Notes under the pieces: generated by a model
What the model saw: only the letters and a program-made list of their open reading frames with translations
What the model was told of the DNA's origin: nothing
Databases searched by the model: none
Assembly: GCA_028820655.1 (NCBI GenBank)
Contig: JAPPIK010000042.1
Coordinates: 36,861-100,860 of the forward strand
DNA length: 64,000 nt
From: Candidatus Poribacteria bacterium
Lineage (GTDB): Bacteria > Poribacteria > WGA-4E > JAJDTR01
Direction: 5' to 3'
Shown: in pieces, positions 6,258 to 38,218 of the stretch
Numbering within the stretch: position 1 is the stretch's first letter
Layout of the letters: each line of letters starts with the position of its first letter
Made by a program: the position numbers and the translations under genes

Positions 6258-6499
6258 TGTAATTTGGTGCAGGTCGAGTCCGATGACCTGGCAGTAGCGT
6301 ACATGACGGTTTTGCCTTGCGATGTTAATGCGATGTTAAGTGGTGAACCATTGAAGACCGTTTCGTAGTAGTCGCGGAGCATTATCTTAATGTTTTGTGT
6401 GGATTCTATAGTCTGGTATATGAAAAAAATGTTCCATTACAGTTAAAGCGGTAGAGACAGAATTGCATTTACGCGGTTCACTACAAGTAAGGATGTAAT

Positions 6500-8506
6500 A
6501 TGCCAAAATCCAGGAAAAGATTGATAACTTCGATTGTCTTTGATGTCTGTCTGATTAATCTTGCCTTCTCGGCAGCGTATTATTCGTGTAAATCGTTAGG
6601 CGTCGATATACTTGCCTCTTTTGTGCCGGAGGGGGAAGTTGAGCGTCTCCCACTACATGAGCATTCCTTTATAATCACCGCAGCGATTATCACCATTGTG
6701 CGTTTGGTAGCGTTCTTGATTTTCAGGCTCTACAAGCCGGTCTGGCGATACGCGAGCGTTCGAGAATTCCTATCCCTGATTGGTGCAATTATATGCGGGA
6801 CCTTTGCGCTGATGCTTGTCCCCTATGTTGCACATCTCCTCCGAATTATCCAATACTCCGGTAACCTTCTCCATTCGTGGGTATTGTTTTCAATGGATGG
6901 ATTTTATAATATTGTATTCATAGGATTGGCGAAATATTCCCTTCGAATAGTTGAGGAATACCGAAAAAAGCAAGTTGCAACGCCGTGGATTAAGGTTTTA
7001 ATTGTTGGCACTGGGGAAGCAGGAATTGGAGTATTACGTGAAATTCGCAATCATCCGGAGAAAGGTTATTTGCCCGTCGGATTCATTACAGACAACCGTG
7101 AGAAGGTCGGACAGAGCATTCAAGGTCTCGAGGTTCTTGGCACCACCCGCGAGTTGGCTTATATTGTACACCGGCGCCAAGTAGATGAAATCGTTATTGC
7201 TATGCCGTCTGCATCGGAAGGAAAGGTTCGCGAAATTGTCCGACAGCACAAATATAAGGGGTGTAAGTTCAAAATTGTTCCGAGCATACACGCAATCCTT
7301 GATGGACACGTTAGCATTAGTCAGATTAGAGACGTAAGAGTCGAAGATTTGCTCAACCGCTCGACATCATCAATCGATTTGGCAGAGGTATCAAAATACT
7401 TGTCGGGTAGGCGCGTAATGGTGACTGGCGCCGGTGGGTCAATCGGATCCGAGTTGTGCCGACAAGTAGCAAAGTTCGAGCCTGAGTTGCTTATTCTCGT
7501 TGGAAGAGGCGAGAACAGCTTATACCACATTGATATTGAATTAAACGAGTCTGACCCAAATGTAAACCGTGCGGTAATCGTCGGAGACATTCGTGACCGA
7601 TCGAAGATTGATCGAATCATGGAGAAATATAGGCCGCATATCATTTTTCATGCGGCGGCGCATAAACATGTAAAGTTCATGGAAACGCATCCTGATGAAG
7701 CCGTCAAGAACAACATATTGGGTACTAAGAGCCTGATTGATGCCGCAATCAAGCATCATGTTCAGGCATTTATTTTGGTATCATCAGACAAAGCGGTCAA
7801 TCCGACCAGCGTTATGGGGGCATCTAAACGCGTCACTGAGAAGTTGATTCAAAGTAAAGCTAAACGTAACGGTACCGATTTTATCGCGGTTCGCTTTGGG
7901 AACGTAATTGACAGCCGCGGAAGTGTTTTACCGAATTTCAAACGCCAGATAGCAAAAGGCGGTCCCGTCACGGTCACACATCGCGAGGTCACGCGATTCT
8001 TTATGACGATTCCCGAATCAGTACAGTTGCTTATTCAAGCTGGGGCTATGGGAAATGGGGGAGAGATATTTATTCTGGATATGGGAGAGCCGATCAAAAT
8101 ACTCGATTTGGCACAGGATTTGATTCGACTTTCGGGGCTTGAAGTCGATCAAGATATCAAGATTGAATTCACGGGTTTGGAGCCGGGCGAAAAACTGTAC
8201 GAAGAGCTTTTAACTCCGAAAGAAGGGGTTACCGCCACCAAACATCAACGAATTTTCGTTGGGCAACTAGAGACAATTGAAGAAACTGAATTACTAGCTC
8301 AAATAGGCTCGTTAGAAGGTTTGGCGAATCGGCTCGATACAGAAGGCATCATTGCCAAACTTCAGGAGATTGTCCCAACCTACAAGCCGCAAAGGACATA
8401 CATCGACCAATTGGGCGATGAAAGATTGAGACAATCCGAGCCGCAAGTGATAAACCTTCCTATTGGGCGGAAACCCTATGAAAAGCCAGCAGTGGGAAGC
8501 TCTTGA
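6500..8506 (+). CDS. CapD/PglF/WbpM-type nucleotide-sugar 4,6-dehydratase
   Basis: 668 residues. The N-terminus has four predicted membrane helices (about residues 10-30, 50-75, 90-110, 125-145). A first CoA-binding/Rossmann-like domain follows, with VLIVGTGEAGIGVL near 170. The catalytic SDR domain has the VTGAGGSIGSEL NAD-binding motif near 307. The SSDKAVNPTSVMGASKR segment (about 427-444) contains the Met-x3-Lys that replaces the usual Tyr-x3-Lys in UDP-GlcNAc 4,6-dehydratases. It makes a 4-keto-6-deoxy sugar nucleotide for polysaccharide or glycan synthesis. Start ATG follows GTAAGGATGT. The 3' end overlaps the sugar transferase gene, so the two are probably co-translated. Confidence 0.93.
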   Translation: MPKSRKRLITSIVFDVCLINLAFSAAYYSCKSLGVDILASFVPEGEVERLPLHEHSFIITAAIITIVRLVAFLIFRLYKPVWRYASVREFLSLIGAIICGTFALMLVPYVAHLLRIIQYSGNLLHSWVLFSMDGFYNIVFIGLAKYSLRIVEEYRKKQVATPWIKVLIVGTGEAGIGVLREIRNHPEKGYLPVGFITDNREKVGQSIQGLEVLGTTRELAYIVHRRQVDEIVIAMPSASEGKVREIVRQHKYKGCKFKIVPSIHAILDGHVSISQIRDVRVEDLLNRSTSSIDLAEVSKYLSGRRVMVTGAGGSIGSELCRQVAKFEPELLILVGRGENSLYHIDIELNESDPNVNRAVIVGDIRDRSKIDRIMEKYRPHIIFHAAAHKHVKFMETHPDEAVKNNILGTKSLIDAAIKHHVQAFILVSSDKAVNPTSVMGASKRVTEKLIQSKAKRNGTDFIAVRFGNVIDSRGSVLPNFKRQIAKGGPVTVTHREVTRFFMTIPESVQLLIQAGAMGNGGEIFILDMGEPIKILDLAQDLIRLSGLEVDQDIKIEFTGLEPGEKLYEELLTPKEGVTATKHQRIFVGQLETIEETELLAQIGSLEGLANRLDTEGIIAKLQEIVPTYKPQRTYIDQLGDERLRQSEPQVINLPIGRKPYEKPAVGSS

Positions 8507-9155
8507 CCTATCATTAGACGGTAGCAGTCTCAATCGCTCCGTTTTTCAGAATGTAGCAAAACGACTTCTGGATCTTCTATTTGCGACATTGGGTTTAATC
8601 TGCTTTCTCCCGTTAGTGGTGCTAAGTGCATTATTAGCGCGCATTCAGTCTCCCGGGCCAATCATCTATAGAGCAAAACGGGTTGGCCGTGGCGGGCGGA
8701 TTTTTGAGATGTACAAATTCCGGACTATGGTCGCAAATGCCGAGTCACTTGGTACAGGATTGACGATCTACGGTGATTCGCGGATCACTAAACTGGGTCG
8801 GTTCTTACGGTGGACGAAATGGGATGAGATTCCGCAGTTCCTCAATGTCATCAAAGGTGACATGAGTATTATTGGCCCCCGCCCTGAAGCGCCGGCGTAC
8901 GTGGAATATTATACTGAGGTTCAAAAGCAAGTCCTCCAAGTTCGACCTGGAATTACCGGTCCGGCGCAAATTGCGAATCGTGATGAAGAGAAGAAGCTGG
9001 AAGGTCAGTCTCATCCTGAACAGTATTACATCACCCAATTGATGCCAAAAAAGCTTGAAATCGATCTTGACTATATTGGAAATCAGAGCGTAGCCGCCGA
9101 TTTACTGTGGCTGCTCAAGACACCTTTTGTGATTGTCTTTTCTCACAGGTGTTGA
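8478..9155 (+). CDS. Priming sugar-phosphate transferase (polyprenyl-phosphate type)
   Basis: About 225 residues from ATG 8478 with GGGCGGA just upstream; the start lies inside the preceding gene (29-nt overlap). One re-entrant or transmembrane helix (about residues 25-50) is followed by the conserved catalytic core: GPIIYRAKRVGRGG, the MYKFRTM basic motif, LRWTKWDEIPQFLNVIKGDMS and IGPRPE. This is the small monotopic family of PglC/WcaJ C-terminal domains. It transfers a sugar 1-phosphate to undecaprenyl phosphate on the cytoplasmic face. Next to a PglF-like dehydratase this resembles the start of a bacillosamine-type or exopolysaccharide pathway. The exact sugar cannot be read from sequence. 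Confidence 0.93.
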   Translation: MKSQQWEALDLSLDGSSLNRSVFQNVAKRLLDLLFATLGLICFLPLVVLSALLARIQSPGPIIYRAKRVGRGGRIFEMYKFRTMVANAESLGTGLTIYGDSRITKLGRFLRWTKWDEIPQFLNVIKGDMSIIGPRPEAPAYVEYYTEVQKQVLQVRPGITGPAQIANRDEEKKLEGQSHPEQYYITQLMPKKLEIDLDYIGNQSVAADLLWLLKTPFVIVFSHRC

Positions 9156-9184
9156 TAGCGCGGTAGTAAGGAAAACATACTCAC

Positions 9185-10051
9185 ATGACGCGGAAGACAA
9201 TCATAAAACTTCTCGTCTCCCTCGCAGCCTTAGTGATTCTTGTGCTTCTTGTAAGGACATTTGTGGGTGACGGGTCAATTGGAGGAAGAATCGCGGTAGT
9301 CGATATCATTGGGACGATAACAAAGTCGGACAAGGTCATTGAATTGATTCATCAATACCGCGACAATGGAAGTGTTAAAGCGATAGTAGTGCGAATAGAC
9401 TCACCGGGCGGTAGTGTTGCACCAGTTCAGGAAATCTATAGTGAATTAAAAAAATTAGACAAACCGGTTGTTGCGTCACTTGGAGGAACAGCTGCGTCCG
9501 GAGGATACTACATTGCTAGCGCAGCCGATGAAATCTTTGCTAATCCGGGAACGCTGACAGGAAGCATAGGGGTCATTATGCAGTTCGTAAAAATGAAGGC
9601 GCTTTTCGACAAAGTAGGGGTAAATCAACAGACTGTAAAAAGTGGCGAATTCAAGGACACGGGATCACCCGTCCGCGATCTAACGCCAGAAGAGAAGGAA
9701 CTATTGCAGGCGACAATTGACGATGTACACAGTCAGTTCATAGACGCAATATTTGACACGCGAAAGGATCGACTGACTCGCAGCGAGGTGCAGGCATTAG
9801 CGGATGGGCGTATCTTTTCGGGGAATCAAGCATTAGAATATAAACTCGTTGACAGATTGGGAAACCTTCCTGACGCTGTGGCACATGCCGCCGAACTCGC
9901 CGGAATTGAAGGAAAACCACGGATAACGCGCGTTAAACACGAGCCTTCTTTGCTTGAACGGATAATCGGGATTTCCGGAACACATGCGTTAGAGGATTTT
10001 TTTGATGGCACGGGTGTTTTATTTCGGTACGAGTTAAGTTTTGCAGAATAG
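9185..10051 (+). CDS. sppA: Signal peptide peptidase SppA, short form
   Basis: 288 residues. The N-terminal membrane anchor (about 8-25) is followed by one ClpP-like domain. The nucleophile serine is in GGTAASGGYYIASAADE and the catalytic lysine in VKSGEFKDTGSPVRDLT, giving the Ser/Lys dyad of SppA. It digests leftover signal peptides or membrane protein fragments at the outer face of the cytoplasmic membrane. It probably starts a run of four co-directional genes (gaps 35 and 50 bp, then a stop/start overlap). A second, long-type SppA is encoded at 43.9-45.8 kb. Confidence 0.93.
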   Translation: MTRKTIIKLLVSLAALVILVLLVRTFVGDGSIGGRIAVVDIIGTITKSDKVIELIHQYRDNGSVKAIVVRIDSPGGSVAPVQEIYSELKKLDKPVVASLGGTAASGGYYIASAADEIFANPGTLTGSIGVIMQFVKMKALFDKVGVNQQTVKSGEFKDTGSPVRDLTPEEKELLQATIDDVHSQFIDAIFDTRKDRLTRSEVQALADGRIFSGNQALEYKLVDRLGNLPDAVAHAAELAGIEGKPRITRVKHEPSLLERIIGISGTHALEDFFDGTGVLFRYELSFAE

Positions 10052-10085
10052 AGTCACACGAGTAGAAAAACCTCAGTTTTGTTGA

Positions 10086-11186
10086 TTGAGGATTTATACG
10101 GGAGCAATCGAGTGGTCAAGTTTCGACCCAATCTTGGAGAGTATGAAGGGTGATTATCAGGGGAACCATGATTGGGAACGTATTGCGCGAAGAATCATTC
10201 ATCCCCAAGCGATTGTTCTTGTAATTGGTTCGGTGGACACCGGCAAATCTACGTTTTGCCGATTCCTAGTTGAACAGGGCCTGGCTCGTGGCTTGACAGT
10301 AGGACTGGTTGATGCGGACTTAGGCCAGTCACAAATCGGCCCGCCGGCGACAATTGGCCTCAAGGTTTTGTCCCAAAACCCTGATTGGAATGAAATCGAA
10401 GCCGACGATTTATACTTCGTCGGCTGGATTTCTCCCGAAGGACATTCACTGCGGTGTGTCACGGGAGTCCGCCTAATGGTGGATACTGCCGTTCGAGCCG
10501 GTGTGGATTTTGTTGTGGTCGACACATCTGGCTATGTCAAGGGTAGGGGCGCCGTCACGCTTAAACAGCACAAAATCGAGATAATTCAGCCTCGCCATCT
10601 GGTTTGTATCCAGCGTTCGGGCGAGTTGGATGAAATCGTTGCAGGATTTGATGACATCCACCCCGTGAAGGTTCATCGGCTTGCCCCCCATCGCGCGTCC
10701 ACTTCCAAAACCAGCGATTTCCGACGAAAATATCGTGAATCCCGCGTCAATCGTTATTTTTCCGAAACAGTGGAAGCATGTCTACCGTTTGAGAGATTTC
10801 GTGGACAGAGGACTCCTTATTTCGTTGGTAGAAGTGCAAATGCAAGAGAGTTGGAGATTCTTTCTGACCTGGCCGAAACCCGAGTCCTTTATGCAGAATG
10901 GGGTCATCGAACTCTGGCACTTGTAACTCAGGAAGTTTTACCAGATTGTGTTCAGTCGCAATTGAAGCATCGGTTGAGCTTATCCAATTTGGTCGCGAGA
11001 CCCCAGAGATATTTTGAGCGCCGATTTGTCGGTTTAATTGATGCGAGGGGTAAGACGGTTTCAGTTGCAATCATCAAAGCAGTTGACTTTGAAGCAAATT
11101 GTCTTACGCTGCTTTGCAAACCGGATACAGCAGAGAACACGAAGATTGTGCAATTTGGACGCTATAAGGATGAACAAGTCGGGTAG
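10086..11186 (+). CDS. Clp1/Grc3-like P-loop polynucleotide kinase
   Basis: Up to 366 residues from TTG 10086; an ATG at 10143 (MKGDYQGNHDWER) is an equally likely start. The core shows a Walker A GSVDTGKST, a DADLGQSQIGPPATIGL switch-like motif and the VDTSGYVKG Walker B. This pattern matches the Clp1 P-loop family (polyribonucleotide 5'-hydroxyl kinases, archaeal and eukaryotic Clp1/Nol9), which also occurs in some bacteria. The C-terminal ~150 residues (RYFERRFVGLIDARGKTV and following) look like a beta-rich Clp1 C-terminal domain. A role in phosphorylating RNA or DNA 5'-OH ends is inferred from the family. It sits between sppA and a methyltransferase in a probable operon. Confidence 0.82.
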   Translation: MRIYTGAIEWSSFDPILESMKGDYQGNHDWERIARRIIHPQAIVLVIGSVDTGKSTFCRFLVEQGLARGLTVGLVDADLGQSQIGPPATIGLKVLSQNPDWNEIEADDLYFVGWISPEGHSLRCVTGVRLMVDTAVRAGVDFVVVDTSGYVKGRGAVTLKQHKIEIIQPRHLVCIQRSGELDEIVAGFDDIHPVKVHRLAPHRASTSKTSDFRRKYRESRVNRYFSETVEACLPFERFRGQRTPYFVGRSANARELEILSDLAETRVLYAEWGHRTLALVTQEVLPDCVQSQLKHRLSLSNLVARPQRYFERRFVGLIDARGKTVSVAIIKAVDFEANCLTLLCKPDTAENTKIVQFGRYKDEQVG

Positions 11187-11236
11187 AGAGGAGGACGGTT
11201 ACTATTACGGCCATAAATTAAAGTATTGGACCTGTC

Positions 11237-11959
11237 ATGTGGGATGAGACGTATTTGCTCTCTGAGTTGCCATCAGAAGACGAGACGAAGGAAGAAGCAG
11301 ACTTTATCGTTGATGTGTTAAATCTTCAACCCGGGTCGACTGTCTTGGATCTATGCTGCGGACAGGGCAGACATGGGCGGAAATTGGCGAATTTTGGCGT
11401 CGATGTCATTGGTCTTGATAACTCTCGGTTTCTGCTCAACGAGGCGCAGAATAATACCGACGCAGATGGAGGTCGACTTCGACTCATTGAAGCGGATATG
11501 CGACATATTCCTCTGAAGTCGTCGTGTAATGCAGTCATAAGCCTATTCACAAGCTTCGGATTTTTTGAAGAAAAGGACAACACAAACGTCATTTCAGAAA
11601 TCGCGTCGGTATTGAAGCCAGATGGTCGGTTGCTAATTGACCACTGGAATCCATACGCGGTTGCCCAGCTTGACCATACGCGAAATTGGTGGTGGGTTTC
11701 AGAATCGACCCTCGCCTTGGCGGAGGTGGAATATCAGCCTCAATCGGGGCGGTTGTACGACTATCGCACGATCATAGAATTGCCCACAAAATCAATCCGC
11801 AAAATGGTCAACACTGTACGATTTTACTTCCCGACGGAAATGGAGAGGTTGTTAAAGGCCGTTGGTTTGGGCATTCGGGCCACTTATGGCGATTTTGATG
11901 GCAGCGACTTCAATACCGGGTCGCGGCGCATGATCACAGTTGCGGAGAAGTCGACGTGA
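11237..11959 (+). CDS. Class I SAM-dependent methyltransferase
   Basis: 240 residues. Motif I is LDLCCGQGRHGRKLANFGV (about 35-53), followed by the acidic VIGLDNS loop that binds SAM ribose. LIEADMRHIPL is motif II/III and DGRLLIDHWNP motif IV. The fold is the common Methyltransf_25 type; the substrate is not visible. The stop codon TGA (11957-11959) overlaps the GTG start of the ABC exporter, so the two genes are translationally coupled. A product made or modified here could be exported by that transporter, but this is inference. Confidence 0.88.
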   Translation: MWDETYLLSELPSEDETKEEADFIVDVLNLQPGSTVLDLCCGQGRHGRKLANFGVDVIGLDNSRFLLNEAQNNTDADGGRLRLIEADMRHIPLKSSCNAVISLFTSFGFFEEKDNTNVISEIASVLKPDGRLLIDHWNPYAVAQLDHTRNWWWVSESTLALAEVEYQPQSGRLYDYRTIIELPTKSIRKMVNTVRFYFPTEMERLLKAVGLGIRATYGDFDGSDFNTGSRRMITVAEKST

Positions 11960-13770
11960 TACCGATCTTTGGGAGGTTTGTACGGTATCTGGCGCCATAT
12001 TCTGTACAAATCTTATTTGCGGTACTTTGCGCGATTGTAATTTCGATTTGCGAATACGGTTACTTTCACATTCTGGCGGAGACTACAGACCTCCTAGTAT
12101 TGATTACAACAGAGGGGTTTGACGCGGAGCCTATCGTCGTTCGTTACTTTTACGTGGAAGGATTTTTTGACGGAATCCCCGAAATTGTATTGGTAGATTC
12201 TGGTGACGCACTGCAGCTTGTGGGTCTGGTTATCACAAGTATTTTGATATTGGTGGTCGTGAAAGGGGTATTCACGTTTTGCAATGACTACCTTATGTCG
12301 CGAGTCGGACATAGATTGTTTGTCCGAGTTCGCAACGAAATGTATGCAAAGATACTTTCTGCTCCATTAGGCGTGCTTAGGGAGCATCGGACTGGCGATT
12401 TGATGTCGCGAGTCACTGACGATGTTCGAACATGGCTCAATAGTGTTGGAACAACTGCACCAACCATCCGTGCAATTGTCACTGTTCCTGTCTTTGTCTG
12501 TTTGCTGTTCGTTCGGAATTTTGAATTAACTGTCTTCGCGGTATTGGTGTTGCCACTATTGGCATACATCATTTCACGTGTAGGGAAGCGGGTGCGCCAT
12601 GCGAGCATCGGAATTCAGCAGAGCACTGCAGACATTGTTTCACAACTAAAAGAGACTATCACTGGCATCAAAATCATAAAAAGTTTTACTGCTGAAGTGT
12701 TGGAACAGCAACGCTTTGAGACTGTCGGCAATCGTCAATACCGCGTAGCAATGCAACGCGTTCGTCTTGTAGCAGCGCTACCACCGTCAATTGAGTTAAT
12801 CAGTGCCGTTGGCTTTGGGGCAGTTTTTGGGTTTGGCTGTTGGCAAGTCATCCAAGGAACGCTATCTCCCGGATGGTTCATCGGCTACATCGGCATGATT
12901 GGTTTTATGTTCAAACCGATAAAAACCATCGGGCAGTTCAACAACGTACTTCAGCAATGCCTCGCGTCAGCAGAGAGAATATTTTACATACTGGATTTTC
13001 AGGATGAGGAACCGAAGAAATCAGAGAAAACGCATCTTCCCGACGTAGTGGGTGATGTCAGGTTTTGCAATGTGTCCTTCGGTTATGATCAGCGGGTCGT
13101 CTTAAAAGACATTAATATACATGCCAAGCCGGGGGAAGTTGTTGCTTTGGTAGGGGCAAGTGGAAGTGGAAAAACCACGTTGCTTAATCTGTTGCCGCGG
13201 TTTTACGAGGTTGGTGCAGGAGAGATTCTGATTGATGATCACTCCATTTCTGAAGTGACGGCACGATCCCTGAGGCACCAAATTGCGATTGTGCCGCAGG
13301 ATACAATCTTATTTGATGGGACGGTCGGAGATAATATAAGCTACGGTTGTCCTGATGCGACTCGCGAGGAGGTGGTTGAGGCAGCGCAGCAGGCAAATGC
13401 ACACGAGTTTATCATGCAGATGCCCAATGGTTATGACACATCAATAGGTGAATCCGGATTGAAATTGTCCGGCGGGCAACAACAGCGTATTTCAATCGCA
13501 CGGGCCATTCTGAAGAATCCCCGTATTCTCATTCTTGATGAAGCCACGTCTGCGTTAGACAGTACTTCGGAAGCGCTTGTTCAAGACTCTCTCGCAAAAC
13601 TGATGAAAGGGAGAACGAGTTTTGTCATTGCTCATCGGCTATCAACGGTTTCGCATGCGGACAAAATTGTCGTACTGGACCACGGCAAAGTAGTAGAAAT
13701 CGGACCGCATGATGAATTGTTGAAACGGAAAGGTTTGTACCAGAGTTTATGCAAAATGCAACTCCGTTAA
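11956..13770 (+). CDS. MsbA-like ABC exporter (fused permease and ATPase)
   Basis: 604 residues starting at GTG 11956, overlapping the previous stop by the GTGA pattern. The N-terminal ABC transmembrane domain has about six helices (about residues 15-330). An extended external loop of roughly 60 residues lies between the first two helices (about 38-90). The nucleotide-binding domain has Walker A GASGSGKTT (about 399-407), signature LSGGQQQR (about 503), Walker B ILILDEATSALD and the H-loop AHRLS. All are intact, so the protein should be an active homodimeric exporter of lipid, glycan or peptide. It ends the sppA-clp1-methyltransferase run. Confidence 0.92.
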   Translation: MIPIFGRFVRYLAPYSVQILFAVLCAIVISICEYGYFHILAETTDLLVLITTEGFDAEPIVVRYFYVEGFFDGIPEIVLVDSGDALQLVGLVITSILILVVVKGVFTFCNDYLMSRVGHRLFVRVRNEMYAKILSAPLGVLREHRTGDLMSRVTDDVRTWLNSVGTTAPTIRAIVTVPVFVCLLFVRNFELTVFAVLVLPLLAYIISRVGKRVRHASIGIQQSTADIVSQLKETITGIKIIKSFTAEVLEQQRFETVGNRQYRVAMQRVRLVAALPPSIELISAVGFGAVFGFGCWQVIQGTLSPGWFIGYIGMIGFMFKPIKTIGQFNNVLQQCLASAERIFYILDFQDEEPKKSEKTHLPDVVGDVRFCNVSFGYDQRVVLKDINIHAKPGEVVALVGASGSGKTTLLNLLPRFYEVGAGEILIDDHSISEVTARSLRHQIAIVPQDTILFDGTVGDNISYGCPDATREEVVEAAQQANAHEFIMQMPNGYDTSIGESGLKLSGGQQQRISIARAILKNPRILILDEATSALDSTSEALVQDSLAKLMKGRTSFVIAHRLSTVSHADKIVVLDHGKVVEIGPHDELLKRKGLYQSLCKMQLR

Positions 13771-13918
13771 CAATTGCGGGTCTTGAAGGCCAATAAAATT
13801 GGGCTAAATTGCAAGGAATACGTAAACTTAACATTGGGTAATCCCGTCTCATTTGGAACAAATCAATAGATAAAACCAATGCGCGAGTATTTCGAGTGTC
13901 TAAACTTCATTGATGAAG

Positions 13919-14494
13919 TCAATTACGCCCCTGTTTTATGATGGCATCTTTGAGATCAGAGCGCTTGTACACAGCTTCTGAAAAGTCTACTTCATACAGG
14001 TAAGCGCTTGTAAACTTGGCTCCGTTAAAGATAACGCCTTGCGGCTTGGTTTCGCCAAATATGGTTCCCTCAAGATTTGCATTCTCAAAGCTTGTAAGCC
14101 TTCCAAACTGATCCGGCACAATCCAGCGAGGGCAACCAATGGTTGCGCGACGTAGATCTGCATTACGAAAATTCGTGCCCGCGAGGATACTGCCGCCGAG
14201 AAATGCTCCTTGAAGATTTGTTCCTTCAATGTCTGTGTTCACAAGATTGGACCCAACCAGATAGGCACCCTGTAATACGGCGTCTGACAAATCAGCGTCG
14301 GAAAGGTCTGTTTCATTAAGGTTAGCGTCGGTTAAATTGGTGTTTTTCAGTCTCGCGCCATTTAAATTTGCACGTGAAAAATCAATGCCGACCAATTGTT
14401 CACCAGACAAATCAATATTTGCGAGATTTTCACCCGCAAGAGATTTGCCATCTCGTATACGCTTCACTACATCAGATTTGCTAATTCGATTCAT
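13919..14494 (-). CDS. Pentapeptide-repeat protein
   Basis: 191 residues with repeated A(D/N)Lxx/xNLxx units from about residue 20 to 115, and again around 140-185: for example ANIDL, ANLNGARLKNTNL, ADLSDAVLQGAYL. The N-terminal ~20 residues (MNRISKSDVVKRIRDGKSL) resemble the DVxxRIxxGxSLxGxNLxGxxL lead-in common in this family. Such proteins form a right-handed quadrilateral beta helix; roles range from gyrase protection to scaffold. No targeting signal is seen. The gene converges with the ABC exporter and is divergent from the NADAR/DarT pair, with about 258 bp between the starts. Confidence 0.85.
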   Translation of the reverse strand: MNRISKSDVVKRIRDGKSLAGENLANIDLSGEQLVGIDFSRANLNGARLKNTNLTDANLNETDLSDADLSDAVLQGAYLVGSNLVNTDIEGTNLQGAFLGGSILAGTNFRNADLRRATIGCPRWIVPDQFGRLTSFENANLEGTIFGETKPQGVIFNGAKFTSAYLYEVDFSEAVYKRSDLKDAIIKQGRN

Positions 14495-14681
14495 ATTTTA
14501 CCCCGAGTCTTGGCTGAGAGGAATTTAATTTGTGGGGGAATAAAGAGTATCTGGCTTTCGAAATTTCCGATTTTCATGAGGAAAATTGTCTTTCACACAT
14601 AGATGAAGATAGGTATCAATCATTAGACAGATGAATGTGTCTGAGTTTGGTGCGGTTACGAGTAGAATGTCATTAATCTCG

Positions 14682-14710
14682 TTACATGTGATAGACCCAC
14701 GATATAGTAT
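14682..14710 (+). promoter_or_regulatory. Candidate promoter for the NADAR/DarT-sigma pair
   Basis: TTACAT at 14682-14687 and TAGTAT at 14705-14710 are separated by 17 bases, about 43 bases before the NADAR ATG. This is a moderate match to a housekeeping -35/-10 pair. A second candidate upstream of the toxin gene itself was not seen. Confidence 0.4.
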
Positions 14711-14752
14711 AGCACAAGATTGAGGGCATTACCAAAGTCAGGAACTAAATAG

Positions 14753-15427
14753 ATGGCACAACGCCCCATTTTTTCGCCGGATCCTAGCAAGTGTCCGTAT
14801 GTTCGAGTCGTGAATGTCGACTTCCAATGGCATCCCGGGTTTGCGAAATCACAGCTTCAAAAATCTATCGAGTCATTGCACGATGCCGCTGAAAAACTAG
14901 GAATCGCCCCCATTCTGGAAATATCGGGAAAATCGACATCGCGACTTGGGGTTTCATTGAGCGCATTTAATTTAAAATTGATAACACCAAACGGTTCCTC
15001 AATAAGCGTGGAATGTGCTTACCAAGGAAGTAAGGTGTTTCGAAATGGCGGTCCGTTTAGCGATCTGTACTTCGTCGAATCAAGCCGAGCAGCAAAAAAG
15101 GATCTGAGGTTGACAACTTCGGGTACGTTAATAAGATTCGACTACTTCGGGAAAGTCTTTCCAGCTGAACCCAAGACAGCTTTCTACGATTGGTTATATG
15201 TAAAAGCGCTGTGGCAAAATGACCCTGATCTGGCAAGAGAACTCGCAAGGTTTGGGGGTTTCTCTGACATAGTCTTTAATCCCAAACGGTCCTTCAACTG
15301 TCAAGCGCGTGCTGCCGCACTTTTTGTGGCCTTGTCTCAGAATCAGTTGCTCAATCAGGAAATTTTGGAGGATAAGGACCACTACTTGGAACTGGTGGAC
15401 GACACTGGGTTTTTTCCCATTAGGTAG
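14753..15427 (+). CDS. DarT1-associated NADAR-type antitoxin
   Basis: 224 residues. The whole length resembles the NADAR antitoxins that pair with DarT1-type toxins: an FQWHPGFAKSQLQKSIESLH start, LEISGKSTSRLGVSLSAFNL, VECAYQGSKVF, GGPFSDLY, SSRAAKKDLRL, EPKTAFYDWLYVKAL and FNPKRSFNCQARAAAL. NADAR domains remove ADP-ribose from nucleobases and protect the host from the partner toxin; that is family knowledge. The ATG start has a weak AGGA upstream. The gene lies directly upstream of the DarT-sigma fusion (78 bases from its stop to the likely toxin ATG), antitoxin first, as expected for a co-expressed toxin-antitoxin pair. The family call rests on recognised motifs only. Confidence 0.82.
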   Translation: MAQRPIFSPDPSKCPYVRVVNVDFQWHPGFAKSQLQKSIESLHDAAEKLGIAPILEISGKSTSRLGVSLSAFNLKLITPNGSSISVECAYQGSKVFRNGGPFSDLYFVESSRAAKKDLRLTTSGTLIRFDYFGKVFPAEPKTAFYDWLYVKALWQNDPDLARELARFGGFSDIVFNPKRSFNCQARAAALFVALSQNQLLNQEILEDKDHYLELVDDTGFFPIR

Positions 15428-15505
15428 ATTCCAAATTTGTCTATGATACTGCCGCAAGTTTGAGTGGAAACAGGAGTTTTCTTTAGGAGGATTAGAATCA
15501 GGAAT

Positions 15506-18361
15506 ATGTATGTTAGAGACCAACACGGGAGAAGTTCGAAACGTGTCGCTCAAATAAAAGAGATTTGTAAGGAGCGCGACATTACAACACTTGTGCACTT
15601 TACCCGTGTCGATAACTTAAGCAGCATTCTACGGGACGGTTTGTTGAGTCGTGAAACACTAGAAGAACGCCGTCAAACGTTCGATTTCAATGATTCAGAG
15701 CGATTTGATCGTCAAAAAGACGCAATTTGTCTGAGCATAAGTTTTCCAAACTCAGAAATGTTTTATGTCACAAGGGAAAACAAACAGCAGGCTGAGGATG
15801 TGAGTCATTCGAAATGGGTCGTTTTGCTACTTGATGTAAAAGTCTTGTGGGAATTGGATTGCGGGTTCTGTCAGGAAAACGCTGCGGCTAAATGTATGCA
15901 CGAGACTCCTTGGAAGGAGAAGACAAAACCCGAATCGTTACAGAATATGTTCGTGGAAGTTGTAACAGACACCAAGGAAAAGGATTACCGGCGTGAAGAT
16001 TTGCAAATACCTGATAACTATCCAACGCATCCTCAAGCGGAAGTGCTCGCGAAAGGACATATCCCGGCAAATTATATCAAGGAGATTTGTTTTCAAGATT
16101 CACGCGCTATGGAACGCTGGAAGTCCAGTATCACGGAGTCTGTTTCTCCCAAGTTGATCGCAGACAAGAAATACTTTATACCCAGAAGCAACAATACGTG
16201 CCCGCAAAATTACCAATACAATGGGGGTTACGAGGAAGCAGAAACTGTGGATAAGTCAAAAGCAGAAGAAGAGGTGGTTGAGACAAGAATTGGCGATGAT
16301 TCGTTTGACCATGAACCAGATTATACGATGACTGAGAAGGAAGGTGGCAGATCCCAACACGGGAGATGCTCCAAACGTGTTGCCGAGATAAAACGGATTT
16401 GCGAGGAGCATGACATTGGAACACTTTTGCATTTTACCCGTGTCGATAACCTAAGTAGCATTCTACAGGACGGATTGTTGAGTCGTGGAACTTTGGAAGA
16501 ACGCGGCCAAACGTTCTATTTCAATGATCCAGAGCGGCATGATGGACACAAAGACGCAATTTGTCTAAGCATAAGCTTTCCAAACTCTGAAATGTTTCGT
16601 TCCAAAAGGGAATTCAAATCAAAGGCTGAGGGAGTGAGTCATTCCAAATGGGTCGTTTTGCTTCTTGAAGTGCGTGTCTTGTGGGAATTTGATAGCGGAT
16701 TTTGTCAGGTAAACGCTGCTGCAGATCGTATGCAGAAGATTTCTTGGAAAAGGAAGAGCGAACCTGAAAAATTACATCGTATGTTTAAGGAAGTTGTAGA
16801 AGATGCTACAAAGTCGTATGACCGGTGTCAATTACAATTGCCCAGGGACTATCCAACGCATCCGCAAGCGGAAGTGCTCGTGAAAGGGCAAATCCCGGCA
16901 AAATATATCAAGGAGATTTGTTTTCACGATCAAAAGGCTTTGGATCAGTGGAAGACCGGTAATACGGAATATTGTCCTTCCATATTGTCCGCTGGCAGCC
17001 AGTATTTTGTACCCAGAAGCGATTATACTATCTTGAATCAAGTTAAATCAGCGAAAGAAGATGTAGATGAGAATAGTATTGACAATGATACGTGTGACCA
17101 TGAGCCAGATTATGTGAAGAAAGACATCCCATTCCTGTCATTGCCCACGGATGGATCAACTGATGATGATTTATATGGTAACACAGATAAAGATGACCAC
17201 AATGAAGACGAAATCATCTCCTCGATTCGGAAGCCTCCCGACGTGACGGACAGCACGAGGGATGAAGCTTTTTCTTACCTGCAAGAAATTGCTCGCACTC
17301 CCTTACTTAAACCCAAAGAAGAAGTTGATCTTTTCAGAAGGTTTGAAGATGGGAAAGCAGGTGTAGCTGAGCTATTGGATCAACTTCCGGAATCTATTCT
17401 GGCGGAAGTGCGTCCGAAGGCAATCAAGCGCCGCGGTGCAAGACAACAATCAGAAACTGAATTGTGGTGGAGCCCGATGAATCTCGGTAGTGTCTTGGAC
17501 CAGGTTCGTAATATTATTGAGGCCACCCGCGTCACCGGAGTACAGGAAACTCAGTCAGCGGAGGCATATCTTGAGGAGCGAGAACGGCTTGCTACATTGT
17601 GGGGCAAATTACAAACCGCTGCCCAGAAAATCCACGATGCAAAGTTGAAGATAGTGGAAGCAAATTTGTTGCTTGTAGCGAGCATTGCCAAACAGCACAA
17701 TTTCAACAGATCATCTCTCTCGTTTCTCGACCTGATGCAAGAGGGAAGTATCGGTCTAATGAAGGCTGTCGAGAAGTTCGACCTCAAGAGGGGATACCGA
17801 TTCAGTACATATGCTACATGGTGGGTGATGCAAGCGATAAAGCGCGCTTTAGACCAGCAAAGTCAAACCATTCGCATTCCATGTTACGTCGGCGAAACTC
17901 GGAGGTCAATCAAACAAGCGCAATCCACCTTGGCAAAAGATCTTGAGCGCGAGCCAGATATTAGGGAGGTTGCTAAAATCGTCGACATGCCTGAGAGCCG
18001 CGTGATTGAAATTCTGCAAAGCACAAAAGGTACGATTTCGCTGGATTCGCCACTCAGCGAAGCGTCGCCCGATGCGACCGTTTCAGACTTGTTGGCAGAT
18101 GATTCGCAGATAACACCGGAAGACGAACTACTCTGTGTCTCGGAGAAGGAATCCCTTGAAAGGGTGCTCAATACATTGGCACCGCGCGAAACCCTTGTAA
18201 TAAAACTCCGCTATGGATTGACGGATGGTACAGAGTATACTCTTGCTGAAATTGGCCGACAACTTGGCATCAGCCGCGAGAGGGTGCGTCAGATTGAAGA
18301 TGAAGCGCTTCGAAAGTTACGGCATCACACACGTGTGCAATATCTCCAAGAGTTGCTATGA
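15506..18361 (+). CDS. Tandem DarT1-type ADP-ribosyltransferase fused to sigma-70 factor
   Basis: About 951 residues from ATG 15506; an in-frame GTG at 15464 would add 14. AGGAGG at 15485-15490 is 15 bases from this ATG, longer than usual. Numbers below count from the GTG. DarT copy 1 (about 20-240) has LVHFTRVDNLSSIL with His45, NDSERFD, ICLSISFPNSEMF, WVVLLLDVKVLWE and PTHPQAEVL with Glu193. Copy 2 (about 298-520) repeats all of these with His323 and Glu470. The Glu of QAEVL corresponds to the catalytic glutamate of DarT. Each copy is followed by a related acidic linker ending in DHEPDY. Residues about 600-965 form a full group 1/2-type sigma-70: region 1.2 (FSYLQEIARTPLL), region 2 (LDLMQEGSIGLMKAVEKFD, FSTYATWWVMQAIKRAL), region 3, and region 4 helix-turn-helix (LAEIGRQLGISRERVRQIE). 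Region 1.1 is absent. The reading frame is open throughout. Confidence 0.85.
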   Translation: MYVRDQHGRSSKRVAQIKEICKERDITTLVHFTRVDNLSSILRDGLLSRETLEERRQTFDFNDSERFDRQKDAICLSISFPNSEMFYVTRENKQQAEDVSHSKWVVLLLDVKVLWELDCGFCQENAAAKCMHETPWKEKTKPESLQNMFVEVVTDTKEKDYRREDLQIPDNYPTHPQAEVLAKGHIPANYIKEICFQDSRAMERWKSSITESVSPKLIADKKYFIPRSNNTCPQNYQYNGGYEEAETVDKSKAEEEVVETRIGDDSFDHEPDYTMTEKEGGRSQHGRCSKRVAEIKRICEEHDIGTLLHFTRVDNLSSILQDGLLSRGTLEERGQTFYFNDPERHDGHKDAICLSISFPNSEMFRSKREFKSKAEGVSHSKWVVLLLEVRVLWEFDSGFCQVNAAADRMQKISWKRKSEPEKLHRMFKEVVEDATKSYDRCQLQLPRDYPTHPQAEVLVKGQIPAKYIKEICFHDQKALDQWKTGNTEYCPSILSAGSQYFVPRSDYTILNQVKSAKEDVDENSIDNDTCDHEPDYVKKDIPFLSLPTDGSTDDDLYGNTDKDDHNEDEIISSIRKPPDVTDSTRDEAFSYLQEIARTPLLKPKEEVDLFRRFEDGKAGVAELLDQLPESILAEVRPKAIKRRGARQQSETELWWSPMNLGSVLDQVRNIIEATRVTGVQETQSAEAYLEERERLATLWGKLQTAAQKIHDAKLKIVEANLLLVASIAKQHNFNRSSLSFLDLMQEGSIGLMKAVEKFDLKRGYRFSTYATWWVMQAIKRALDQQSQTIRIPCYVGETRRSIKQAQSTLAKDLEREPDIREVAKIVDMPESRVIEILQSTKGTISLDSPLSEASPDATVSDLLADDSQITPEDELLCVSEKESLERVLNTLAPRETLVIKLRYGLTDGTEYTLAEIGRQLGISRERVRQIEDEALRKLRHHTRVQYLQELL
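15521..16339 (+). repeat. Intragenic direct repeat, copy 1 (DarT domain plus linker)
   Basis: Begins with CAACACGGGAGA. It is clearly similar at nucleotide level to 16355-17115, offset 834 bases at the 5' end, including long near-identical blocks around the HFTRVDNLSSIL and SISFPNSEMF codons. The unit includes the acidic linker ending in the DHEPDY codons. Confidence 0.85.
16355..17115 (+). repeat. Intragenic direct repeat, copy 2 (DarT domain plus linker)
   Basis: Second copy of the DarT-plus-linker unit, beginning CAACACGGGAGA. It differs from copy 1 by scattered substitutions, one missing codon before the PTHPQAEVL motif and a shorter linker. The region downstream, encoding the sigma factor, is not repeated. 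Confidence 0.85.
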
Positions 18362-18462
18362 GTTGCGAACCCGCCACAGCCCTTTAGGGCTAGTTAGTAA
18401 TGTCTCTCCCTCGAATCCAATCATTGTATGTAAAATCCTTTGGCAATTCCCTCTATCGGATT

Positions 18463-19851
18463 TTAGATTGCACCACCGTTGATAATCGGGCACAGATCGC
18501 AAAGTCGGCTGCTGCAAAAGTTATTGTGAAGATAGATTGTGCCTTGTTGAGTCTTCGCAGCCGGTGAGACTATACTAAAAGGCTGCGTTTCAGAAAAAAC
18601 TTGGGATTGAATCTTTCTGGTGATTCGGTTGTCTTGTAATTTCGGACAGCTGCTATACAGTCGTTCCACAGCGTCGTGCAAAACGACACTTTGAGATTCC
18701 TCGGCCCATACAATTGCAATTGGCAGAAGTATGTTGACAATTATGTCCAATGCGCGATCTGCTCCAATTAAAGTGGATCCAATTTGAGGCAACCCTTTTC
18801 CAAAATTAGAATGATCAATCCAGTAGCCCGTAGGTGCAGGTGTCAATTTCTCCACTAACTCCCGCCGGATTGCTCCCAATCTCTTTTTCCCTGCCTCCGC
18901 AGAGAGTTGAATAGTGGGAAGGAAGATCATCATCAGGCTTTCTTGGCAGTTGCCAATGAGTCGGCTGATAGCGGCAATTCGTCGAGTGGGATAGTTTCCC
19001 GGACGGGTTTTTGAGAATTGCCACTGCTCGGCAACCATTCGAGTTGGGGGCTTGGCTTGCTCAGATGCCTGCCAGATCGATTCTATCCGCTTTATGAATG
19101 ACTTGTCAGTTTCGTCCAGATCAACAGAACGTTGAGATTGCGAGGGTAATAGACCTGCCGTACCGAACAGTATTCCCTGTATCTCTTCGTCTTCCTTACC
19201 GGCAAGAGATGCAAAGGGAACTCGCCGAGCTAACTCCCGAAAGGGTTCACGATTCTTGGCGTAGCCTAGCGCTTCCATGATACCCTCATACAGCAGTTGT
19301 TCAAAGTCCATCCGAATGCGGAGATTCTTCATTGCGTCCGCTTTTTCCATCAATCGTTCTCGACCTAAGTCTTCAAGGACCGATTTGAGCTTTCCAATAT
19401 TAAGAGATTTGCCTGTAACTCGACAGAAGTCACCGGTCGCAACTCTTGCCGCTTCTGATTCGTCAAATAGGTCTCCGATAGGGGTGTTGAGTCGATTCAA
19501 GAGTTCAAGCGTTGGTATTCTCTGCCCATCCTGAAGACGCGTGCGCAAGTTTATATCATCGTTCAGGTATACGACGTGCAAAACAACACGATTGTATTTC
19601 GGATTTAGGTGATGCTCGTGAGCGTACCAATCTGACGAATTGATATGGATCTCAACATCACCGATCGTAAGTTTCCCTTCAATGATGATTTCCGCCCGGA
19701 CAAAATCTGGTCCTTCATCACTATTCCAGATGCCAGCCTTTAGAATACTTACCGACCGACCATCCGTAGTCTGCAGGTCAATGTTAAAAAAACTTTGATC
19801 GTTCCAGATATTCTGAAAGAATTCTTCGCTGATTTTCTTAGATTCGGCCAT
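18463..19851 (-). CDS. DUF2851 family protein
   Basis: 462 residues. The N-terminal half carries the family features: SEEFFQNIWNDQSF, GIWNSDEGPDFVRAEIIIEG, IGDVEIHINSSDWYAHEHH and NRVVLHVVYLND. This His/Glu-rich beta-strand region has the look of a nuclease- or cupin-like core, and Asp-Glu-His combinations could bind a metal. The C-terminus has a CSSRLCDLCPI cysteine cluster. Members are found across Bacteroidetes and other phyla and have no established function that I know of. It converges on the DarT-sigma gene with about 100 bases between the stops. Confidence 0.8.
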   Translation of the reverse strand: MAESKKISEEFFQNIWNDQSFFNIDLQTTDGRSVSILKAGIWNSDEGPDFVRAEIIIEGKLTIGDVEIHINSSDWYAHEHHLNPKYNRVVLHVVYLNDDINLRTRLQDGQRIPTLELLNRLNTPIGDLFDESEAARVATGDFCRVTGKSLNIGKLKSVLEDLGRERLMEKADAMKNLRIRMDFEQLLYEGIMEALGYAKNREPFRELARRVPFASLAGKEDEEIQGILFGTAGLLPSQSQRSVDLDETDKSFIKRIESIWQASEQAKPPTRMVAEQWQFSKTRPGNYPTRRIAAISRLIGNCQESLMMIFLPTIQLSAEAGKKRLGAIRRELVEKLTPAPTGYWIDHSNFGKGLPQIGSTLIGADRALDIIVNILLPIAIVWAEESQSVVLHDAVERLYSSCPKLQDNRITRKIQSQVFSETQPFSIVSPAAKTQQGTIYLHNNFCSSRLCDLCPIINGGAI

Positions 19852-36469: not shown

Positions 36470-38218
36470 TCAATACGCTTCCTTATACCCAATGTCCGTT
36501 ACACGGAAAGGTTCGGCACCCCGCCCGTTGTTTGGAAGATTTAGCGGTAGGTGTACATCCAGAAGGAATGGACGTCCTTCCCGTTCCACTACGTCCAATC
36601 CACGTTCGATTGAATCTGCGACACAAGACTCGTCCTTCACGCACACAGCTTCCACGCCGAATCCCTCGGCGATCTTCACGGGGTCGATGCCGCTCAAGAC
36701 GACACCTGGATACACGTCGGTTTCCTCCATTGTTGAACCTTTGGCTCGGCCAAAGTGGTGTGCAACGATTCCGTAAGATCGATTGTTGGATATCACATAG
36801 AGTAGGGGAATCCCGTGATGAACCGCCGTCCATAGACCTGAATCGGCATAACACAGCGATCCATCCCCGACCAGACCAACGACGGGGCGATCAAGCGCCG
36901 CCAGTTTGGCACCAATGGCTGCACCTACCCCGTACCCTTCCGATCCGCCGGCCGCGATCAAGTAAAGGTTGTCTCCCACATCTTCGGATTTCGCGAGGTT
37001 TTCCACGGGAACAACATACTGTTCGATCATAACCACGCCCCCATCCCGCCGGTTTAATGCTTCATCCAGTGAATCTCGTAGCAGCCAAGGACGTACTCTA
37101 CCGGACCGAGGTTTGGATGTACGCTCGGTTTTGATGCGTTCTGCGTGGAGCGATGCTGCCTGTTCTTGTGCCCACCCACGCCGGTTTTCCAATCGATTCG
37201 ACTTAGAATGACTATCTGCGAACTCGTTCAACCTTTCCAGGGTGCGCTTTTCATCCGCCAGAATGGCGAAATCGAGCCCCGGAATATTCTTGATGTTTGC
37301 GGGGTCCGACCCGATGGCGGCTAACTGTCGACCGTCGGTAAACGCATGATAATCGTGAGGTATTCCAAGCCCGGCGTGCCGGACGCCAAGACATAGAATA
37401 AGGTCCGGATCAAGTGTATCTATGGCTGCCATATGTCCACAGCGAAATCTGTGCCTAAGCGGGATGCTACGCAGATCGCCCCATACGTTGACAACGGGTA
37501 GTCCAAAATTCTCAACAAACGTGGTAGCTTCCGACTCAGCCCGGTTTTTCCAGATGCCGTCACCAATGTAGAGCACGGGGCGCTCGGCGTCGTGAATTAG
37601 CCGTGCCATTTTTTCCACATCATCATCGTCGGGGTACCCTACGTGCATGACCGCAATATCAGTTTCGATAATGTTCGTCGAGACCTGTTGATTGTACAGC
37701 ATCCGATCGTAAACAGCCAGGTGTACGGGCCCTACCGGAGGTGTCTTGGCGACGTGAATCGCTCTATAAATAGCTTGAGGCAGCCCTTCCGGTTCAATAA
37801 CGGACCAAGCTGCTTTTGCCATAGGCGCGGCAATCGAGGTTGGTGCAACACTATGCCCCAGGTCAAGACTAACTCGGTCACCGTAGCTTCCGGTGTCACC
37901 GGCGAAAGTGATGAGTACGACAGGCAGACTCCCGTACCATACGTTATAAAATTGGCCGAGACACTGAGCTAATCCGGCACCGAGGTGCACTAGCATTACG
38001 GCAGGATCGAGTTTCACCTGCGCATAACCGCCAGCCATCGCAGCAACACTACCCTCGTGCAGACCGAGAATGCCGTGAATCTTGGGGTGGGAATTTAGAG
38101 CATCGAAGAAATGCGCCTCTCGGGAGCCGGAGTTATTGAATACGTAGTTGACTCCCAGTGCCGCGAGTTGCTCGACCAAAATCTGAGACGGACTCGCCGT
38201 GATAGGCCTCAAATCCAT
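36470..38218 (-). CDS. Thiamine diphosphate-dependent decarboxylase/synthase-like enzyme
   Basis: 582 residues. The PYR domain contains the catalytic Glu in GLHEGSVAAMAGGYAQ. The middle domain has the YIGDGIWKNRAESEATTF segment. The PP domain has the full ThDP motif VGLVGDGSLCYADSGLW ending in YVISNN, and a GYGVGAAIGAKLA approach. Length and motifs resemble benzoylformate decarboxylase and acetolactate synthase large subunits. It differs strongly from the first ThDP gene of the cluster, so it is an old paralogue, not a recent copy. Start ATG lies behind a GGAAGG. Confidence 0.88.
   Translation of the reverse strand: MDLRPITASPSQILVEQLAALGVNYVFNNSGSREAHFFDALNSHPKIHGILGLHEGSVAAMAGGYAQVKLDPAVMLVHLGAGLAQCLGQFYNVWYGSLPVVLITFAGDTGSYGDRVSLDLGHSVAPTSIAAPMAKAAWSVIEPEGLPQAIYRAIHVAKTPPVGPVHLAVYDRMLYNQQVSTNIIETDIAVMHVGYPDDDDVEKMARLIHDAERPVLYIGDGIWKNRAESEATTFVENFGLPVVNVWGDLRSIPLRHRFRCGHMAAIDTLDPDLILCLGVRHAGLGIPHDYHAFTDGRQLAAIGSDPANIKNIPGLDFAILADEKRTLERLNEFADSHSKSNRLENRRGWAQEQAASLHAERIKTERTSKPRSGRVRPWLLRDSLDEALNRRDGGVVMIEQYVVPVENLAKSEDVGDNLYLIAAGGSEGYGVGAAIGAKLAALDRPVVGLVGDGSLCYADSGLWTAVHHGIPLLYVISNNRSYGIVAHHFGRAKGSTMEETDVYPGVVLSGIDPVKIAEGFGVEAVCVKDESCVADSIERGLDVVEREGRPFLLDVHLPLNLPNNGRGAEPFRVTDIGYKEAY

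Follow-up and report, generated by a model that had tools for sequence, protein, structure and literature searches.

Two DarT1 domains joined to a sigma-70 factor beside a NADAR gene in a Candidatus Poribacteria genome, with a possible role at promoters

What could a sigma factor do with two copies of a predicted DNA ADP-ribosyltransferase at its N terminus? This question is raised by a 64,000-nucleotide stretch of a Candidatus Poribacteria genome (referred to as the window here), which lies on contig 37 of a draft assembly of 5.88 Mb in 61 contigs. On its forward strand, a NADAR antitoxin gene of the DarT1-associated type (positions 14753 to 15427, 224 amino acids) precedes a gene in which two DarT1 domains are followed by a complete sigma-70 core (15506 to 18361, 951 amino acids). 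An earlier sequence-only reading had described this arrangement, with DarT occurring twice, then sigma-70 regions 1.2, 2, 3, and 4, and a NADAR gene upstream, and all of these parts were recovered in place. We think that the sigma part may carry a predicted guanine ADP-ribosyltransferase to promoter bubbles, with the tagging reversed by NADAR, and we give this idea slightly less than an even chance.

Domains of the fusion protein and its NADAR partner

When the two N-terminal halves were searched apart, each matched the DarT model PF14487 (E 9.3e-28, 97.8 bits, and E 2.1e-20, 73.7 bits; cut-off 22.5), which confirms the DarT identity on which the sequence-only reading hinged. Copy 1 (15596 to 16168) spans residues 45 to 235 of the frame counted as 965 codons, and copy 2 occupies 16430 to 16954; the copies are about 64 to 67% identical (67% over 228 amino acids). 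For the DarT1 of Escherichia coli C7, R52, D54, M71, N104, and E152 are described as essential (PMC11543638; this and the other papers cited are drawn on in excerpt). Mapping to the structure 8baq showed that all five are kept, and common to both copies; the mapped residues of copy 1 are H45 F46 T47, N76, D77, R80, D82, S91, M99, F100, N139, Q191, and E193 in 965-codon numbering. E193 and E470 are the predicted catalytic glutamates of the two copies. Membership in the DarT2 (DarTG2) family was rejected, with scores against NF048013 of 36 and 26.3 bits versus a cut-off of 150 and a neighbor that is a NADAR rather than a macrodomain antitoxin.

Both copies are followed by acidic stretches. The first interval (16169 to 16429) holds the inter-DarT linker (residues 242 to 298; 57 amino acids with 15 D/E and 5 K/R), mostly at a predicted local distance difference test (pLDDT) below 50, and the beginning of copy 2. 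The second (16955 to 17275) holds the end of copy 2 and a disordered linker to the sigma part (residues 512 to 597; 86 amino acids with 23 D/E and 8 K/R), which is modeled with low confidence and whose last part resembles the native N terminus of an unfused sigma factor from a genome of the same genus (G001). In the predicted structure, copy 1 reaches a pLDDT of ∼90 across most of the domain, while the full-length model (mean pLDDT 64.6, predicted template modeling score [pTM] 0.40) places no DarT-sigma contact and renders copy 2 poorly, probably an effect of copy 1 taking up the alignment; modeled alone, copy 2 yields a good predicted structure.

In the C-terminal part, each sigma-70 region scored above its Pfam cut-off, as the sequence-only reading had anticipated: region 1.2 (17276 to 17356; PF00140, 31.2 bits, cut-off 22), region 2 (17651 to 17863; PF04542, 61.5 bits, cut-off 24), region 3 (17894 to 18127; PF04539, 56.2 bits, cut-off 25.3), and region 4 (18164 to 18325; PF04545, 70.7 bits, cut-off 24.1). 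Regions 2 and 4 of sigma factors contact the −10 and −35 elements, and alignment with SigA shows that FSTYATWW in region 2 and RER(V/I)RQIE in region 4 are kept. The ratio of nonsynonymous to synonymous substitution rates (dN/dS) between regions 2 to 4 and the unfused G001 sigma is 0.031, versus 0.106 for the neighboring ABC transporter gene, 0.058 for the pentapeptide-repeat gene, and 0.110 for the DUF2851 gene; these are rough values from a simple counting method, with a synonymous divergence (dS) near or above 1 in most comparisons. The low ratio indicates strong purifying selection and argues that sigma function, predicted to be core binding and promoter opening, has been kept.

The window's genome encodes three other sigma factors with a region 3, namely an RpoD-like protein of 561 amino acids and two more, none of them a near copy, which makes the fused sigma the sole member of its orthologous group found there. 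A genome search with the whole protein gave matches in 58 of 58 genomes, and for the other 57 the best match lay in the sigma part every time. The fusion was rejected as a primary sigma factor (TIGR02393, 251.8 bits versus 354, with the RpoD-like 561-residue sigma encoded elsewhere in the genome). It was likewise rejected as MzaA of the MZA anti-phage system, a sigma-70-like protein in a defense context, since it falls far under the equivalog cut-off of NF041931 (256.2 versus 800 bits); with the PADLOC MzaA model, the genome's own RpoD (218 bits) outscored the fusion (173.5 bits), so this match is general to sigma factors. Among the sigma orthologs, those of one family (f2; L018 to L023) have open frames of ∼550 to 560 amino acids, against the usual 430 to 480 in another (f4), the additional length being N terminal.

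The upstream gene matched the NADAR-DarT1 family, to which the sequence-only reading had suggested comparing it, at E 3.3e-83 (PF22397, 278.8 bits, cut-off 27), and the Geobacter NADAR structure 8bat at E 1.3e-57. The key residues given for the E. coli C7 NADAR are E88, K95, K115, and D171 (PMC11543638), and the counterparts of all four, placed by spacing in an alignment with the Hafnia, Franconibacter, Rahnella, and Acinetobacter NADARs, are kept in the window. Here the antitoxin comes first, whereas in 28 of 28 other loci matching both families (about 23 distinct ones, as L045 to L049 repeat genomes of the order) DarT comes first and NADAR lies downstream; the upstream position leaves the 3′ end of DarT free for the sigma part. 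At two DarT loci, L041 (a weak match) and L059, a NADAR match was not found.

Toxin and antitoxin also occur within single chains among the relatives. One protein of 618 amino acids (P0005) is annotated with DarT, NADAR, and a macrodomain, a toxin fused to its antitoxin. The second DarT of the window's genome is a protein of 404 amino acids with a macrodomain (PF14487, E 5.8e-51; PF01661, E 6.4e-6), a toxin and what is likely its eraser in one chain; its gene (L001:1474-2688, contig 48, DarT match at 37162 to 37728) lies ∼3 kb from the ssb gene.

Recurrence and origin of the fusion

A draft genome in 61 contigs raises the question of whether two neighboring genes were joined by an assembly or gene-calling artifact. 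The frame from 15464 to 18361 is open throughout, with zero internal stops and none between the domains, and a database search for the same architecture, as the sequence-only reading had proposed, retrieved two more DarT-sigma proteins: P0002 (677 amino acids, on a 6.49-Mb contig) and P0003 (687 amino acids, on a 4.07-kb contig), each with a single DarT ahead of this same sigma. Given that the same junction recurs on other contigs in diverged sequence, which speaks against misassembly, we consider the chance of an artifact practically negligible. Over 387 columns, the sigma parts of P0002 and P0003 are 85.0% and 87.1% identical to that of the window and 89.7% identical to each other; because these diverged sigma parts are all fused, the fusion has probably persisted through the divergence of species. 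Both proteins start at a methionine aligned with ATG 15506 and the database form of the window's protein (P0001) has 951 amino acids, so this start is more likely, judging from the alignment, than GTG 15464 (965 codons). An AGGAGG sequence at 15485 to 15490, 15 nucleotides 5′ of this ATG, is a possible ribosome-binding site.

The fusion appears to be rare. When 84 genomes from the phylum were compared, a DarT match was present in 14 (weakly so in G031), and DarT and sigma share a frame only in the window's own; for this comparison, the DarT ends at 13 places in the order were followed to the stop, with the weak G031 match left out. None was fused in 15 of 17 loci from a genome-contig scan that were followed to a stop near the DarT end (L052 came to a stop after 49 residues and L061 was left out), a scan that may leave out near relatives of the window. 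The 120 listed of 7,848 long sigma matches contained only the three fusions already named. A phage or viral source was rejected, as 29 stretches of viral contigs matched a pattern with none confirmed and no relative was found in the phage records searched. Among plasmids, 24 of 72,556 records gave distant DarTs, all below 60% identity.

In the same-genus genome G001, the sigma gene stands alone between the same two neighbors, and a DarT match was found nowhere in that genome. Window positions 6454 to 14529 and 17141 to 18364 align to it at 79% and 82% identity (blastn), and the stretch from 14530 to 17140, which spans the NADAR gene, the two DarT domains, and some of the linker, has no blastn match in the G001 locus (L043), with homology on either side. 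In the best tree, G001 is nested among the three fused sigma factors (support 88 and 56), which, if right, would mean that the module was lost in G001. The fused three were therefore not taken as a clade excluding G001, although a tree uniting them is not rejected (approximately unbiased [AU] test, p 0.118; an earlier tree gave 0.914 and 0.451). The DarT of P0002 shares 77% identity with copy 1, more than the 64% between copies 1 and 2, which suggests, from these identities, that the duplication predates the split between the window and P0002 and that one copy was lost in P0002. KKDIPF, which stands where DarT meets the sigma part, resembles the tips described below, and we do not claim it as a relic of one, because a comparable stretch occurs in the N terminus of the G001 sigma and EGVKF takes its place in P0003.

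This history bears on a plainer account, in which an ordinary DarT1-NADAR module is anchored to a conserved sigma gene and acts on any single-stranded DNA, such as that of phage or replication forks, while fusion protects the module since its loss would break the sigma. Such modules are known as toxin-antitoxin and anti-phage systems, and no consensus motif is reported for the C7 DarT1 (PMC11543638); moreover, this sigma is single copy in the genome. Set against this are the possible loss of the module from G001, which keeps its sigma (same support and AU values) and would make the anchoring imperfect, and the consideration that simple linkage does not need one protein. We regard this account as unlikely, while still deserving attention.

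Possible action at promoters

Once on core polymerase, a sigma factor melts the promoter and keeps hold of the non-template strand, and DarT1 requires single-stranded DNA. In the mechanism we propose, the sigma part, still binding core, would bring DarT to the RNA polymerase on opened promoters; there, the acidic linker of ∼86 residues would let DarT reach the bubble. DarT would then tag unpaired guanines, and the promoter would stay blocked until NADAR removes the tag; the tandem arrangement would raise local activity. The outcome would be a reversible, promoter-selective shut-off, either for regulation or in a stress or phage response. We infer that the sigma still binds core and opens promoters and that DarT acts on the DNA it unpairs; guanine is named as the base because the partner is a NADAR and because of residues in common with DarT1.

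Two cases make this action plausible. In Mycobacterium tuberculosis, a DarT that is a protein of its own acts on the non-template strand next to the −10 element, in regions touching sigma A, and in vitro transcription is almost completely inhibited when this strand is modified (PMC12170906). When DarT2 is fused to Cas9, the strand displaced in the R-loop receives the mark (PMC13368585). The M. tuberculosis case, the essential residues in both copies, the constrained sigma, and the SSB-module relatives described next lend indirect support to promoter delivery. The architecture and NADAR pairing of the sequence-only reading are borne out; its proposal that DarT may be delivered to promoters once they melt agrees with these observations.

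We examined what other DarT1 proteins carry in 208 relatives (88 of 91 after removal of the three fusions, plus 120 listed of 201). A C-terminal IPF, mostly preceded by acidic residues, was present in 91 of them (49/88 and 42/120), as compared with 2 occurrences of IPF across the interior of these proteins (83,188 positions). Within the source genome's order, 8 of 13 DarT places end in IPF, an SSB-like tip of the DDIPF kind, and one in MPF. Since these matches are related to each other, we clustered the 178 relatives whose DarT core could be cut; IPF ends remained in 12 of 48 cluster representatives at 70% identity and 5 of 28 at 60%. They were seen in none of the ten non-poribacterial loci, out of 12, that were read to the end (L052 and L061 left out). 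The genome's own SSB ends in TEDDIPF, and the C-terminal tip of SSB is a docking site for partner proteins (PMC10164576). An SSB domain (PF00436) occurs in 13 listed relatives, N terminal to DarT in three of the three scanned, and none of the 13 has the IPF end. Other relatives carry WD40 or ankyrin repeats, and several of the WD40-bearing ones end in an SSB-like tip; P0257 (scanned), P0260, P0268, and similar proteins have ankyrin repeats after DarT1.

By analogy, the SSB tip, the SSB domain, and the sigma part would be exchangeable modules that address single-stranded DNA. This leads to a wider form of our proposal, in which the sigma would ADP-ribosylate guanines in the promoters it opens, so that any round of initiation could leave a covalent but reversible shut-off mark, with NADAR as the eraser, and the DarT1s of the lineage would carry exchangeable address tags. 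We put it forward tentatively, at clearly below an even chance.

Host sigma factors are targets of phage, and the protein could also be a guard, with DarT kept inactive while the sigma is on core, or by NADAR, and freed to arrest growth when a phage displaces or inhibits the sigma. AsiA is a phage factor acting on the host sigma (PMC7824862), and a linker predicted to be long and disordered would permit gating. Against a guard speak the model, which places no contact between DarT and sigma (pTM 0.40), and the lack of a clear defense gene among the ten neighboring proteins scanned with PADLOC. That scan returned partial matches to mad2 (E 1.3e-20, a methyltransferase) and mad3 (E 3.3e-33, an ABC transporter) and weaker ones to mad8 and AriA, which we took as general methyltransferase and ABC-ATPase folds, rejecting a defense island. 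A guard therefore seems improbable to us. Given that the neighborhood is common to the sister genome and the PADLOC matches are only partial, regulation of host promoters is slightly favored over defense.

Several observations weigh against action of the fusion at promoters. The T of the SigA motif WWIRQAITR (T440 of E. coli sigma-70), which we take to be the reader of the −12 base, is replaced by K in the fusion and in the G001 sigma, so promoter choice may differ from that of the housekeeping sigma. In G001 the sigma suffices by itself, no more than three fusion proteins were found, and NADAR context was read for the window's alone. The SSB-tip argument is an analogy drawn from relatives, and the fusion itself has no free C-terminal tip. 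In the DarT domains, the positions of the C7 DarT1 guanine contacts K74 and Y75 carry V and T in copy 1 but S and K in copy 2; R replaces Y73 in copy 2, and both copies have L in place of M33, which makes guanine a tentative choice of target base; K74 and Y75 vary in mapped DarT1 relatives too and are not named among the essential residues in the excerpt of PMC11543638. Since a consensus target motif was not found for C7 DarT1, according to the same excerpt (PMC11543638), targeting of the fusion would rest on the sigma alone. Finally, constraint between the copies (dS 0.54, dN/dS 0.44 by the same simple counting) is weaker than on the sigma.

That ratio, the base-adjacent changes at K74 and Y75 with Y73 to R in copy 2, and the possible loss of one copy in P0002 would also fit DarT domains that are dead or nearly so, the protein being only a sigma with an enlarged N terminus. 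However, the five essential residues persist in the two copies as well as in P0002 and P0003 (P0003 has S at the N48 position and T at that of S26), and NADAR has been retained with its four key residues, so we find dead domains very improbable.

Relation to known systems and the surrounding locus

The closest known system is DarT1-NADAR (DarTG1) of E. coli C7 and Geobacter lovleyi (PMC11543638), which shares the DarT1 fold, the essential residues, and an adjoining NADAR with its key residues; here, in contrast, two DarT copies are fused to a whole sigma-70 factor, NADAR is the upstream gene, and K74 and Y75 are not kept. M. tuberculosis DarT2-DarG likewise modifies promoter DNA at the sigma site and inhibits transcription, but its DarT is separate and thymine specific, with DarG as antitoxin (PMC12170906), whereas here the sigma is within the enzyme. 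In the DarT2-Cas9 append editor, DarT is also tethered to a DNA opener and marks the displaced strand, but that protein is engineered and RNA guided (PMC13368585); the fusion is natural and, if our proposal is right, sigma guided. In some E. coli strains, the rpsU-dnaG-rpoD operon contains a stand-alone NADAR gene, here too beside a sigma-70 gene (PMC11125620). This NADAR is of another subtype and is reported to be an inefficient antitoxin against DarT1, the excerpt mentions neither DarT nor a fusion, and its authors ask whether NADARs take part in transcription (PMC11125620). The SSB-tipped and SSB-domain relatives belong to the same DarT1 subfamily (mostly ∼40 to 55% identical), with the SSB-like C-terminal tip or N-terminal SSB domain in place of the sigma.

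The sequence-only reading had known of no described DarT-sigma system. In the open-licence literature, searched mostly by title and start of abstract and with subscription papers and bioRxiv largely outside it, we recognized, among the papers listed, neither a DarT-sigma fusion or other DNA-modifying toxin borne by a sigma factor nor an SSB-tipped DarT, and SSB-Ct together with ADP-ribosyl was not found. As far as this literature goes, the fusion is a previously undescribed form of DarT1-NADAR. If the proposal is true, the transcription machinery itself would write a self-made, erasable DNA mark, and transcription could thereby restrain itself chemically or keep a memory. Bacteria would then have a natural parallel to the engineered DarT-Cas9 editors, and a DarT for which no sequence motif is known would have a way to find chosen sites. 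Whether DarT is regulator or weapon could be tested directly on bubble templates with a single purified protein.

A promoter scan upstream gave 4 sites versus 2.1 expected by shuffling (standard deviation 1.3), no informative excess. Base composition shows no sharp break, with GC contents of 0.436 to 0.443 in windows over 14000 to 17499 and 0.437 to 0.486 in the neighbors. On the minus strand, the locus is flanked by a pentapeptide-repeat gene on the left (13919 to 14494; PF00805) and a DUF2851 gene on the right (18463 to 19851; PF11013), both of which also adjoin the unfused sigma of G001.

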